A stretch of 47,047 bases of DNA, taken from Ilumatobacteraceae bacterium. GTDB lineage: Bacteria > Actinomycetota > Acidimicrobiia > Acidimicrobiales > Iamiaceae. The stretch lies in NCBI GenBank assembly GCA_025463265.1, contig JAOBWH010000035.1, positions 1 through 47,047 on the forward strand, in the 5' to 3' direction. A program made the position numbers and the translations under genes. Under the pieces are notes generated by a model. That model ran no database searches, was not told the DNA's origin, and saw nothing but the letters and a program-made list of their open reading frames with translations. Positions 34,342 to 38,912 of this stretch are shown here, piece after piece; within the stretch, counting starts at the first letter, position 1; the number at the start of each line of letters is the position of its first letter.

Positions 34342-35553
34342 TCAGCTGCGGCCGGCGAGGAGTTCCTCGATGACGGCCTGACGCATCGGCTTGGGCTGCA
34401 GCTCGGTGTCGTAGAGCAGGGGCTGGGTCCCCGGTCGGACGAAGTCATCGAGCCAGGTGTCGCCGTCGTCGAACCCCCAGAAGGTGATCGACCCGCAGGC
34501 GGGCTCGTCGAGGCAGGTGCGCACGAAGCGAGCGGCCCACGCCGCCTGGGTCTCGAGGTCGATGGCGGGTGCGCTCGCGTTCATGCCCTGGAGCGGGATG
34601 TCGATCTCGGTCAGGTCCACGATCACCCCGAGATCGCCCAGCGCCGTCACGGTCTGCTCGATCAGCGCCCAGTCGGGCTCGCCCAGCACCAGGTGACCTT
34701 GGAGCCCGACCCGGTCCAGCCGGACACCCCGGTCGAGCAGGTCCTCGGCGAGCGCCACGTAGGCGTCGGCCCGGGCCGCCAGGTACTCGGTGGAGTCCTG
34801 GTTGAGGACCAGCTGTGTCTCGGGCCAGACCTCCTCGGCCAGCTCGAAGGCCTCGGCCACGTAGTCCGGACCCAGCACGTCGGCGAAGTGGTTCGGGGCC
34901 AGGGTGCCGTCGAGGTCGAGGGGCTCGTTGACCACGTTCCAGCGGTCGATGTCCTGGGCGTAGCGATCGTGCAGAACCTGGAAGTGATCGCGGAGCACGG
35001 CCCAGAGTTCGTCGGGATCGTCGATCGCCCGGATCCAATCCGGCAGCACCGATGGGATCGAGGGCGGGTCCCACAGGAAGTGGGTCGCCGTCAGGTCGAG
35101 GTCGTGTTCCTCGGCGAACGCGACGAGCCGATCCGCCGCTTCGAAGTCCCACTCGTCCGGCCGGGGGTGGATGTTGGCGAACAGGAACGCATCCTCCGAG
35201 GTGACCGAGTCGAACTCCCGCAGCTCGATCGCCTCGCGCTCCGGGTCCCCGAGCTTCGCCGCCGTCCCGACCATCAGGTCCTCCGGCGCTGCGTCTCGCA
35301 GCGAGCACTCGTCGGCGTCGCACCCCGGACTCGGCGTCGGTACCCCGGGCGCACGCGGTCCGAGGTCGTCATCGTCCATGTGGTCCAGCGCGTCACTCAC
35401 CTCGTCGGCCCCGGACCCGGGCCCAGGCGTCGGCCGCGTGCGCTCGCCGTCGCTCCCCGTGCACCCGACGAGCGCGCCGACGCCGAGCACCACCACGACC
35501 GCCAGCCCCACCGAGCGCTCCCAGCCCTTCCGCCAACCGCTGACCCTGCCCAC
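34342..35553 (-). CDS. Glycoside hydrolase family 10 lipoprotein (xylanase-like)
   Basis: 403 residues from GTG 35553. Signal peptide with lipobox LVGC (Cys31), then a Pro/Gly/Asp linker with two close cysteines (GCDADECS). GH10 catalytic residues are acid/base Glu210 (DRWNVVNEP) and nucleophile Glu316 (VDLTEIDIP). FDSVTSEDAF replaces the usual FNSxTPENxMKW, and WGFDDGDTWL is the usual WG.D..SWL. It is predicted to cut beta-1,4-xylan or a related glycan at the cell surface. It has its own leaderless promoter and no partner hydrolases nearby. Confidence 0.9.
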   Translation of the reverse strand: MGRVSGWRKGWERSVGLAVVVVLGVGALVGCTGSDGERTRPTPGPGSGADEVSDALDHMDDDDLGPRAPGVPTPSPGCDADECSLRDAAPEDLMVGTAAKLGDPEREAIELREFDSVTSEDAFLFANIHPRPDEWDFEAADRLVAFAEEHDLDLTATHFLWDPPSIPSVLPDWIRAIDDPDELWAVLRDHFQVLHDRYAQDIDRWNVVNEPLDLDGTLAPNHFADVLGPDYVAEAFELAEEVWPETQLVLNQDSTEYLAARADAYVALAEDLLDRGVRLDRVGLQGHLVLGEPDWALIEQTVTALGDLGVIVDLTEIDIPLQGMNASAPAIDLETQAAWAARFVRTCLDEPACGSITFWGFDDGDTWLDDFVRPGTQPLLYDTELQPKPMRQAVIEELLAGRS

Positions 35554-35559
35554 GTCGCC

Positions 35560-35565
35560 ATCGTA
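35560..35565 (-). promoter_or_regulatory. -10 hexamer of a leaderless promoter for the xylanase gene
   Basis: On the minus strand TACGAT ends 6 nt before GTG 35553, with no ribosome site. Supports that GTG as the true start. Confidence 0.5.
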
Positions 35566-35628
35566 CGAGCAAGGACGCGCCTCGGCCCCCGCCTGGGGCC
35601 GGGGTCGTTCCGTGAGGCGGTGGTGGGG

Positions 35629-37098
35629 TCAGACCGGCGGAGGATCAGGCGGTCGACCGCGGTGTCGTTGGTCTCGTTGCCGATCGTGCTCGCGCTGGTG
35701 CCGTTCACGGCGGGTCTCGAACCGGGGGCGGGATGGCCGGGGCGGCGGCTTCTCCGGCGAGGTGGGAACCGAAGGGTCGATCAGCTGACCGTGCGGGACG
35801 AGGGCGACCGGGGTGCCGTCGGGTCGGGCGAGGTGGAGGTCGCCGTCGAGCAGCGAGCGCCAGAGGTGCCACCCGCCTTCGTGGATGAGGTGGTGGTGGT
35901 GGCGGCACAGCAGCACGAGGTTGGCCAGCAGCGTGGGACCGCCGTGCTCCCAGTGGATGAGGTGGTGGGCCTCGCACTGGTCGGGGGGTGCGTGGCAGCC
36001 GGTGAAGACGCAGCCGCCGTCGCGGAGCTTGAGCGCTCGGCGCTGCTTGCGGGTGGCGTCTCGGAGCAGGTCGGTGACCCCGACGGTCTCGATCGACCCG
36101 TTCTCCGAGATGCGCAGGAGCAGGGCGGCGACGCGAGCGGTGCACAGCAACCGCTCCGCTGCTGCGCGGGTGATGGGGGTTCCGTCGTCGAGCGAGCAGC
36201 AGCGGGACGCGAGGTCGTCGAGGTCGATGACCGGTTCCCCGGCGAGGGTCCGCGAGTCGATGTGGATCGACACCGACGGCCGAGGGTCGCCGTGCTTGGT
36301 CTGACCTGGCGTTGCTCCTCGGCGGGTGAGCTCGGCGAGTGCAGCGGCGACGCGCTGCGACAGAGCCAGGCCATCGTCCGAGCGGTACGTGCCCTGATCG
36401 AACTGCCGGTCGATCCACGCCTTCACCGCCGAGGCGATCTCGGCGCCCGTGACGGGGTCGTAGTCCGCATCGAGCCGCCAGCGACCGTCGAGCGTCGGGG
36501 AGAGGTGCGCTCGGTTCTCGGCAGCCGGATCCGGCTCGGGCACCGAGTCCGCGTCTTCGCCTGCGCGCTCGGCCTCATCTGCCGCTCGGGCCGCCTCGGC
36601 GAGGGCGGCCCACGTCGCGCACACGACGGCGGCATGGGCGACCGAGAGCGGCGCGATCCGATCCACGAGGTCGGCCTCGGCTTCGGAGAAGCGGTCCGGC
36701 CAGGCCTGGCGGGCGTCGAGCAGCATCCGGACCTTCGCCGTGCCCAGCACACCCGATCCGTAGGCAGCCTCCACCGCCGGGCAGGCGCGGAGATCTCGTG
36801 CCGACGCGCTGATGCCCCCGGCTCGCGACCGCGACAGCTCGGAGCGGGCGGCAAGCCATCCGCCGCACGACCGAGCCCCGCCCGCCCGCCAGATCGTCTT
36901 GGCATCGAACACCCCCACGGCCTGCGTGACCAGCGCATCGACCCGCCCCGACACGGCCACGGCGGCGAGCACCAGGTCGGTCGTTGCCGCGTCGGGGAGG
37001 TCGGCGAGCTCCCCGCCCTCGATGCGGTCCGCCAGGTCCCGCAGCGACGCCGGCAGCGTCACCACCCCAGGTGTCGAGTCATGGTACGGCGGAGCCAC
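35629..37098 (-). CDS. DUF222/HNH endonuclease-domain protein (13E12-like)
   Basis: 489 residues from GTG 37098. A DUF222 domain (LRDLADRIEGGELADL, VLAAVAVSGRVDALVTQA, ARSCGGWLAARSELSR) occupies about residues 15-330. The C-terminal HNH nuclease follows: CVFTGCHAPPDQCEAHHLIHW, GGPTLLANLVLLCRHHHHLIHEGGW. Histidines and cysteines for metal binding are present. These proteins are common and repeated in actinobacterial genomes, and their target is unclear. The start is taken from the -10/LexA-box promoter that ends exactly there; a longer frame upstream begins within the promoter. Confidence 0.88.
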   Translation of the reverse strand: MAPPYHDSTPGVVTLPASLRDLADRIEGGELADLPDAATTDLVLAAVAVSGRVDALVTQAVGVFDAKTIWRAGGARSCGGWLAARSELSRSRAGGISASARDLRACPAVEAAYGSGVLGTAKVRMLLDARQAWPDRFSEAEADLVDRIAPLSVAHAAVVCATWAALAEAARAADEAERAGEDADSVPEPDPAAENRAHLSPTLDGRWRLDADYDPVTGAEIASAVKAWIDRQFDQGTYRSDDGLALSQRVAAALAELTRRGATPGQTKHGDPRPSVSIHIDSRTLAGEPVIDLDDLASRCCSLDDGTPITRAAAERLLCTARVAALLLRISENGSIETVGVTDLLRDATRKQRRALKLRDGGCVFTGCHAPPDQCEAHHLIHWEHGGPTLLANLVLLCRHHHHLIHEGGWHLWRSLLDGDLHLARPDGTPVALVPHGQLIDPSVPTSPEKPPPRPSRPRFETRRERHQREHDRQRDQRHRGRPPDPPPV

Positions 37099-37104
37099 AC
37101 CCTC

Positions 37105-37132
37105 ATGATACCGAACACACGTTCGATGACAA
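37105..37132 (-). promoter_or_regulatory. LexA-regulated leaderless promoter of the HNH gene
   Basis: On the minus strand TTGTCA (37132-37127), a 16-bp spacer and TATCAT (37110-37105), each 5/6 to consensus. The spacer is filled by a LexA box, CGAAC-N4-GTTCG (37125-37112), extended by one further matching base to TCGAAC on one side. The -10 ends 6 nt before GTG 37098. A LexA repressor bound there would block RNA polymerase directly. Confidence 0.72.
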
Positions 37133-37292
37133 CCGAAATACCGAAACAACCTGAAATGTCCGATTCTGGAGCTGGTGGAGCCCACACGAAGGACTGCGAG
37201 AAGCGCTCCGCCACCCCCGCCTTCCTCCGGTTCCGCCTGCGTCCCGTGGCCTGACCTGGACATCGGTCCCAGAACGGGGGGCGGCGCTGCCG

Positions 37293-37298
37293 TACGGT
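37293..37298 (+). promoter_or_regulatory. -10 hexamer of a leaderless promoter for the propeller lipoprotein
   Basis: TACGGT ends 6 nt before ATG 37305, with no ribosome site. Confidence 0.45.
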
Positions 37299-37304
37299 TC
37301 CAGG

Positions 37305-38912
37305 ATGGTGCGGGAGGAATCGGGGGGCAGGACCTCCATCGCGTTCGCCGCACGTGCGGGCGTGGCGGCGCTGGCGGTGCTGGCGGTGCTGGCGGCCTGC
37401 TCGAGCGGCAGCACCGACGGGTCGGTGTCGGACACGAAACCGGCCGGCCGGTCCGGCACCGCGCCCAGCACCACCACCACGAGCGCACCTCCCACCAGCA
37501 CGACCACGGCGCCGCCGTACGAGGGGTGGGTCGACCCGGCCAGCTCGGGCCAGCCGTACGGGAAGATCGTCGACGGCCTGATCACGTTCCGGGGCAACCC
37601 CACCCGCAGCTACTACGGCAAGGGCCCGGTGCCGAAGGCGCCGAAGGTGCTGTGGACCCACCCCGACTCGGGCGGCATGTGCGGCGAGTCGTCCGTCGGC
37701 AACGAGACCAAGACCTGGTGCGGTTCGGGCTGGACCGGCGAGCCGGCGGTGTTCGTCCGGGACGGTCGGACGTGGGTGGCGTTCGGTGCCTACGACAAGG
37801 ACATCCACTTCCTCGACGCGGCGAACGGCGAAGAGATCCTGGGCGGGTTCGCGATGGGCGACATCATCAAGGGGTCGGTGACCCAGGATCCCGACGGCCT
37901 GCCCCTGCTGTACTCCGGCAGCCGGGCCGACTTCCACATCCTCGCCGAGGACCGGCCAGACGGGCAGCCCGCCGACCTGTGGAGCATGTCGTCGACCGAC
38001 GTCTCGCCCACCAAGTGGAACAGCGACTGGGACAGCTCGCCGCTCGTGCTCGATGACTACCTGTTCGAGGGGGGCGAGAACGGCCAGTGGTACGTGATCA
38101 AGCTCAACCGCCACAAGGGCCCCGACGGCCTCATCGCCGTCGATCCCCAGGTCCAGTTCCACGCCCCGGCGTGGGACGACCAGCTGCTCGCGGACCTCGC
38201 CGGGTCGGGGGTCCGCCAGAACGACGTGTCGGTGGAGAACTCGCTCGCCATCTCCGGCAACACGGTCTTCTTCGCCAACTCGGGCGGCCTGGTCCAGGGG
38301 TGGGACATCTCCGGGGTGAAGGAGGGCAGGGACCCGACCCGGGTCTTCCGCTTCTGGACCGGTGACGACACCGACGCCTCGATCGTGATCGACGACGAGG
38401 GGATGCTCTACGTGGCCTCCGAGCGGGAGCGGGCCTCGAGCCACGCTCGCAGCGACGAGGTCGGCCAACTCGTGAAGCTCGACCCGCACAAGCCCGACGA
38501 CCCCTTGGTGTGGTCCATCAAGGACCCGCCGTCGGACCCGCCGTCGGGCGGATGCGAGGAGGCCGCCTGCTACGGCATCTGGGGCACCCCGGCGATCTCG
38601 GACGGCGTCGTGTACGCCGCCACCAACCACGGCCGCTTCTTCGGGGCGTCGATGGCGACCGGCGAGATCCTGTGGGAGAAGGAGCTGCCCAGCCCCACCT
38701 GGCAGTCGCCGGTCGTGGTCGACGACACGTTGATCATGGGCGACTGCAACGGCGTGCTCCACGCCTACGACGTGTCCGACCCGGACGCCGATCCGCCCGA
38801 GCGGTGGACCGTGGCGCTGTCGGGGTGCATCGAGTCGACGCCCGCCGTGTTCGACGGGAAGATCTTCGTCGGCGCCCGGGGCGGCTCCTTCTACGCGATC
38901 GGCGACGCCTGA
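37305..38912 (+). CDS. PQQ-like beta-propeller lipoprotein
   Basis: 535 residues. Signal peptide with lipobox LAAC (Cys32), a Thr/Ser/Pro-rich linker (residues ~50-70), then a beta-propeller built from blades with repeated V-V-Y/F and D-G motifs (AVFVRDGRTWVAFGAYDKDI, FFANSGGLVQGWDISG, TPAISDGVVYAATNHGRFF, TPAVFDGKIFVGARGGSFYA). The pattern is like PQQ/BamB propellers but no cofactor ligands are clear. Several cysteines (for example MCGE, WCGS, GCEE, ACYG) suggest disulfides outside the membrane. Function likely binding or scaffold. Divergent from the HNH gene. Confidence 0.85.
   Translation: MVREESGGRTSIAFAARAGVAALAVLAVLAACSSGSTDGSVSDTKPAGRSGTAPSTTTTSAPPTSTTTAPPYEGWVDPASSGQPYGKIVDGLITFRGNPTRSYYGKGPVPKAPKVLWTHPDSGGMCGESSVGNETKTWCGSGWTGEPAVFVRDGRTWVAFGAYDKDIHFLDAANGEEILGGFAMGDIIKGSVTQDPDGLPLLYSGSRADFHILAEDRPDGQPADLWSMSSTDVSPTKWNSDWDSSPLVLDDYLFEGGENGQWYVIKLNRHKGPDGLIAVDPQVQFHAPAWDDQLLADLAGSGVRQNDVSVENSLAISGNTVFFANSGGLVQGWDISGVKEGRDPTRVFRFWTGDDTDASIVIDDEGMLYVASERERASSHARSDEVGQLVKLDPHKPDDPLVWSIKDPPSDPPSGGCEEAACYGIWGTPAISDGVVYAATNHGRFFGASMATGEILWEKELPSPTWQSPVVVDDTLIMGDCNGVLHAYDVSDPDADPPERWTVALSGCIESTPAVFDGKIFVGARGGSFYAIGDA

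Follow-up and report, generated by a model that had tools for sequence, protein, structure and literature searches.

What does it mean that a gene of the DUF222/HNH family lies behind a promoter whose spacer is filled by a palindrome of the LexA type? This question is raised by a stretch of 47,047 nucleotides from an Ilumatobacteraceae bacterium, which was analysed as a whole and is called the window here. An original prediction had placed TTGTCA, a 16-bp spacer holding CGAAC-N4-GTTCG, TATCAT and the start codon GTG 37098 on the minus strand, and all of these elements are present at exactly these positions. The box departs from TCGAAC-N4-GTTCGA at one of the two outer bases, again as predicted. 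The features of the locus are as follows:

37156..37166, minus strand: GAATCGGACAT motif, common, with variants, to other boxed copies of the window genome
37127..37132, minus strand: -35 hexamer TTGTCA (sequence and promoter scan)
37111..37126, minus strand: LexA/SOS box TCGAACGTGTGTTCGG, occupying the whole 16-bp spacer (pattern and matrix match)
37105..37110, minus strand: -10 hexamer TATCAT (sequence and promoter scan)
37096..37098, minus strand: GTG start codon, predicted +1 and predicted leaderless (paralog layout and frame counts)
35629..37098, minus strand: DUF222/HNH gene, 489 aa plus stop (ORF and homology)
36592..36951, minus strand: predicted ParB/Noc-like helical DNA-binding region, residues 50-169 (model and profile)
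35785..36063, minus strand: HNH nuclease domain, residues 346-438 (the motif's Cys, His and Asn are all there)

To take a closer look at the promoter, positions 35400-37400 were scanned on both strands with a sigma-70-type consensus, which gave a single match, TTGTCA/TCGAACGTGTGTTCGG/TATCAT, compared with a mean of 0.0 matches in 50 shuffles of the same region. Lying inside the spacer of this sole match, the box occupies a position suited to block RNA polymerase. The exact pattern CGAAC-N4-GTTCG occurs once in the window, at 37111-37126, and with one mismatch allowed there are 4 sites versus 1.99 expected, so that weak matches in the window carry no meaning. Using a matrix built from the boxes of nine SOS genes of the same genome, the window box scores 24.5 bits and the next best window site 15.7; the nine boxes themselves, each left out in turn, score 13.8-27.7 bits. 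GTG 37098 follows TATCAT at a distance of seven bases on the minus strand. That it is the start codon of a leaderless transcript is supported by the paralog on contig C153, which has the same layout with an ATG at equal distance, and by those genes of the class Acidimicrobiia that carry a box, TAnnnT and a start codon 5-8 nt further on, as 17 of these 18 window-like genes are in frame with the DUF222 domain; the same count supports leaderless starts for this layout.

The assembly of the window genome comprises 4.05 Mb, with a listed contamination of 3.59%, and contains 21 exact copies of CGAAC-N4-GTTCG, while the reversed control pattern is found 0 times. Seven of the 21 lie directly 5' of DUF222/HNH genes (contigs C27, C37, C57, C72, C93, C97 and C153) and nine precede dinB, imuA', dnaE2, recA, ruvC (two), radA, uvrC and lexA. 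These SOS names were read from the ORF sequences and LexA alone was located by Pfam (C194:7226, E 9.4e-25), its own gene having a box upstream at C194:7064. The remaining five exact boxes (L015, L016, L022, L023 and L030) have no assigned downstream gene, and three of them score low (15.6-17.6 bits) and may be chance occurrences. The two ruvC boxes belong to two different ruvC-like genes on C191 and C192 (L026 and L027) of the one assembly, for which a paralog and contamination are candidate readings.

We found 11 DUF222/HNH genes in this genome, ten by the Pfam profile PF02720 plus the window's own gene, which the profile misses. An exact box precedes seven of the 11, the gene on C41 has a one-mismatch box of 22.3 bits, the gene on C145 has a TGTC-N12-TAnnnT element and no exact box, and the matrix and motif scans recognised neither a box nor TGTC-N12-TAnnnT before the genes on C59 and C17. 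One copy on C37 (L036) has a stop codon within its reading frame and is therefore probably decayed. The window observation is thus correct and not due to chance, and the finding is more general than originally thought.

In all seven boxed copies (C37, C57, C72, C93, C97, C153 and the window) the LexA box is also preceded, at a distance of 20-61 bp, by GAATCGGACAT or a close variant. Counted by hand, this motif lies at about -64, -67, -74, -85 and -106 from the start codon, mostly in step with the DNA helix. The window genome has ten copies of it and none of the reversed control; among nine copies read, four precede boxed DUF222 genes and one precedes a promoter of the PafBC type whose gene is truncated where the contig ends. 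At 21 GAATCGGACAT loci of relatives no DUF222 gene was found. An activator site and the end of a duplicated unit (cassette) are candidate readings of this motif.

In order to see how far the arrangement extends, 60 genomes of the class were searched with PF02720, of which 36 had matches, up to 22 per genome. Upstream DNA was taken for 109 of 214 matches, mostly higher-scoring ones and excluding the window genome; the sampled genes come from 32 of 35 genomes. In 64 of the 109 genes an exact box lies no more than 450 bp upstream of the domain match, and it is absent from the remaining 176,074 bp of the sampled loci. When the half-site was permuted, each of 29 other palindromes was found before 0 or 1 gene (mean 0.07). 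A one-mismatch box was found for 16 of the other 45 genes, compared with about 1.9 expected. The 109 genes are not independent of each other, and the exact box is carried by 22 of the 32 genomes. Genome-wide counts of the exact box and of its reversed control are similar in several genomes (10 versus 12 in G054, 13 versus 10 in G052), so single boxes mean little there and the case rests on position. Outside the class the exact box precedes the best match in nine of the 27 genomes looked at (of 44) and does not occur in the other 85,651 bp of these loci. The enrichment that had been proposed as the test of the idea is therefore strong, with 7/11 in the window genome, 64/109 in the class and 9/27 beyond it.

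A second damage-type promoter was found in the same upstream regions. The motif TGTC-N12-TAnnnT precedes 40 of the 109 class genes (22 out of the 64 with an exact box, 18 out of the 45 without), every other spacing from 8 to 19 gives 0-1, and the control stretch from -1200 to -450 has the motif in 3 of 105 cases. Its spacing equals that of the RecA-NDp/PafBC consensus, quoted as tTGTCRgtg-8-TannnT (PMC5656591); it differs in the bases after TGTC, which are ACAcc or ACAgg instead of Rgtg, and the PafBC site is a putative one. The promoter in the window belongs to a different type, its TGTC lying 17 bases before TATCAT. Genes with both a RecA-NDp (PafBC) promoter and an SOS box (LexA) are known in mycobacteria according to PMC8223512.

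To ask whether the motif signals DNA damage in this class, we searched for TGTCACACC-N7-TAnnnT, which is present in 46 of the 60 genomes; the reversed control is present in none. Thirty loci were read, and the genes that follow the motif there include recA, DUF222 and RecB-like genes (three each) as well as radA, DNA ligase, a UvrD-like helicase and RmuC, and the rest are unrelated or unclear; DUF222 was assigned by its own profile and the other names by reading the sequences. Two WYL-domain genes separated by about 1 kb, the arrangement that PafBC would show, were found in eight of ten class genomes tested, and in one genome such a WYL protein matches the PafBC structure 6sj9 (E 2.4e-13).

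Composite promoters point in the same direction, as TGTC-N12-TAnnnT joined to a box precedes DUF222 genes at 21 of 30 loci and the window-like composite at ten of 30. From the 29 composite loci without DUF222 we read 23, of which 15 look like DNA-damage genes, with dnaE2 (eight times), imuA', alkB, a UvrD-like helicase and the ruv operon among them, and the other eight comprise three LysM proteins, one other HNH protein and four unclear cases. The gene at L188, 3' of a window-like promoter, codes for an HNH protein unlike DUF222 that also stands behind a LexA promoter of the spacer type. Counting one-mismatch boxes, 96 of the 109 sampled genes have at least one damage signal; neither a LexA-box nor a PafBC-type signal was seen in 13, including all five from G002. 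Most sampled family members across Acidimicrobiia would thus be wired to damage through a LexA box, a PafBC-type promoter or both, which we regard as probable jointly with the explanation given below as a whole.

The boxed promoters, 64 from the class and seven from the window genome, were classified by layout. Of these 71, 25 are window-like, the box being preceded by TTG and followed directly by TAnnnT; in 24 the -10 of a PafBC-like element (TG[TA][CG] allowed) abuts the box; and 22 fit neither layout fully. An ATG or GTG at box position 8 that reads in frame into the domain is present in 26 of the 64 boxed class genes and in 19 of the 31 with an abutting -10. The most extreme case is G003, a single-contig genome of 2.46 Mb from the same class with at least 27 near-uniform copies behind a damage promoter (L329-L355), which were picked mostly by their composite promoter. 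All 27 read ATGTTCGA inside the box, which means that Met-Phe-Asp is encoded by the operator itself; 25 copies have an intact frame and two are broken.

What kind of protein is placed under this control? The HNH domain of the window protein scores 22.4 bits. PF02720 gave no match to it up to an E value of 5, a miss that is not firm as the same scan also missed the gene L336, which had scored 54.3 bits in the genome search and was unlisted in two later Pfam scans. The window protein does align with the PF02720-positive protein L055 (81.3 bits, with a C-terminal HNH) over 374 columns at 36% identity (E 3e-40), and this homology over most of its length places it in the DUF222/HNH family. In Pfam, DUF222 still goes by the name of a domain of unknown function. 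An AlphaFold2 model of the window protein (pLDDT 83, pTM 0.68) was compared with known structures by VIA-align, and the best six rows were all Noc or ParB (Z 8.5-9.4 over 96-103 residues). For L336, a distant member with 24% identity to the window protein, the N-terminal 190 residues were modelled (pLDDT 90), and the first 12 rows were Noc, ParB and Spo0J (Z 7.8-9.2) with KorB below. For helical folds the safer level of this tool is a Z of about 13, and values below it can reflect a common arrangement. Foldseek with the predicted models gave no hit with E under 0.001.

A profile of 59 members had ParB as its best five PDB hits, three of them being one protein, at weak E values of 0.022-0.043, followed by an unrelated GTPase at 0.065; the ParB-matching segment reads alrrlPevaaalasGelsaaqvral. 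Each of these lines is weak alone; taken jointly, they leave a ParB-type DNA-binding domain as the likeliest reading of the DUF222 region. The predicted fold and the LP...G-x-L-S segment would be shared with ParB, Noc and KorB, from which the DUF222 region differs by its linkage to an HNH nuclease. The original prediction had overlooked this ParB-like part, as well as the PafBC-type promoters in front of many family members.

The relationship between copies was followed in G003 and two congeners, from which 20 copies were fetched. Sixteen of them share flanking DNA with a G003 copy, the two flanks of L367 pointing to different copies, and several of these sites hold a gene whose 5' half is unlike that of its counterpart at the same site. 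Measured in 60-column windows, where unrelated flanks score 51%, L368 and its site counterpart L350 are 75-93% identical from -240 to -25, 51% further out and 46% across the promoter start. Identity falls to 43-60% at nt 18-377 and reaches 80-95% at nt 798-1214 and 95-98% from the 3' end onwards. In the stretch nt 18-377 L368 is instead 78-93% identical to L332, a copy located elsewhere. The same is true for the first 105 residues in five of 11 site pairs with long frames, which show 46-72% identity to the site counterpart and 87-93% to another copy. We read this as gene conversion that would swap the DNA-binding half between copies within this one genus, suggesting that the targets change over time.

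Shuffling of specificity domains is a feature of restriction systems. There, too, copies trade their DNA-binding half but keep their catalytic half and their site; the DUF222 exchange differs in being known from genome comparison alone. For the window's own site, relatives of the flanking PQQ-type gene were inspected at 19 loci, several with incomplete flanks, and none has a DUF222 gene beside it. As the other flank (GH10) is not found beside these relatives, an empty site at the window is not readable, and a mobile element at this site was rejected as a candidate. A phage origin was also rejected: a search of 50,697 phage records gave one weak match, to residues 246-391 (E 9e-6).

Published work describes a related situation in Mycobacterium tuberculosis. 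A putative LexA regulon of 28 genes includes ten HNH genes of the 13E12 family, and the 12 genes added to the regulon in that paper were checked against published ChIP data (PMC4181829). The mycobacterial 13E12 link to SOS boxes, which the original prediction had mentioned, is therefore in print. Rv3074 and Rv3776 are HNH-like, have a LexA box and are induced by moxifloxacin (PMC7911356), and five putative HNH genes are named among the RecA-dependent genes under mitomycin C (PMC8151990). LexA control of 13E12/HNH genes is thus already established in M. tuberculosis, where HNH genes likewise stand under the TCGAAC-N4-GTTCGA box (PMC4181829). The genes described here differ in belonging to another class of the phylum, in their greater number and defined promoter layouts, in the PafBC-type promoter on many of them and, for one layout, in a start codon that lies within the box. 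A search of mostly open-access literature found no paper that connects DUF222/HNH genes with LexA in Acidimicrobiia or describes a ParB-like DUF222. The breadth, the double control, the start-in-operator layout, the ParB-like reading and the domain exchange appear to be new, and the protein reading and the domain exchange are more novel than the regulation.

Taken together, we favour the following mechanism. In the undamaged cell a LexA dimer would sit on the box between -35 and -10 and keep off the housekeeping RNA polymerase. Upon DNA damage RecA filaments would trigger the self-cleavage of LexA, and after its loss a leaderless mRNA would be made from GTG 37098, with an HNH endonuclease guided by the ParB/Noc-like helix-turn-helix of the DUF222 region as its product. 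Sequence elements, enrichment, spacing, frames and box-sharing genes were computed, and from these we infer that LexA would bind, that damage would induce a leaderless transcript and that the protein would bind and cut DNA. We are rather confident of this explanation as a whole, a LexA-repressed, damage-induced leaderless HNH endonuclease with a ParB/Noc-like guide and class-wide damage wiring. Its likely role, of which we are less sure, is that of a damage-time endonuclease cutting selected sites for recombination or repair.

Other explanations have to be weighed against this one. A chance palindrome in a GC-rich genome might be suspected from the surplus of one-mismatch sites in the window, but the exact sites in the genome without a single reversed counterpart, the position inside the sole promoter match and the class-wide enrichment leave it a negligible probability, and the reversed, shuffle and permutation controls together with the enrichment rule it out as origin of the box. 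It is very improbable, too, that the gene is a mere passenger of the SOS regulon, with a real box and expression that has no functional tie to damage: the 13 sampled genes with neither signal would fit, as would the fact that damage induction is deduced from promoter elements, yet two unrelated damage promoters converge on one family and 96 of 109 genes have at least one of them. We also think it unlikely that the nuclease serves as an effector of cell death or abortive infection by shredding the chromosome. SOS timing suits an end-stage response, and the M. smegmatis HNH nuclease MSMEG_1275, likened here as an HNH nuclease, cleaves DNA and kills when over-expressed (PMC9416677); however, it was the one lethal gene out of five HNH genes in that report, it would be odd for one genome to carry a killer in 27 copies that all have a damage promoter, and in PADLOC the HNH part matched a restriction enzyme only weakly (E 0.0023).

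A real if lesser possibility is that these are selfish, homing-like genes, whose SOS timing places cutting in a recombination-proficient cell and whose copies use gene conversion to spread or to overwrite one another. Close copies such as L336 and L338 are alike from the promoter to near the stop codon within unrelated flanks, mosaic copies occur at shared sites in three genomes of one genus, and broken copies exist. Against this, 16 of 20 fetched copies share their site with a congener, meaning that copies seldom jump, neither an empty site nor a terminal repeat or target duplication was seen, and the pattern would also arise if old duplicates underwent gene conversion without any action of the nuclease. 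Going beyond the favoured explanation of a damage-induced guided endonuclease, one may speculate, with considerable doubt, that DUF222/HNH proteins are damage-inducible sequence-directed cutters whose ParB/Noc-type half is exchanged by recombination between the shared promoter-LexA-box and HNH segments, providing a changing SOS-timed repertoire.

In summary, some genomes of the class carry several to many DUF222 copies, with up to 22 matches, and two independent damage promoters, a predicted DNA-binding fold and a defined promoter now make the function of DUF222 directly testable in strains that are not pathogens. A leaderless start inside or just behind the LexA operator would be a compact design for the tight repression of a possibly dangerous nuclease.
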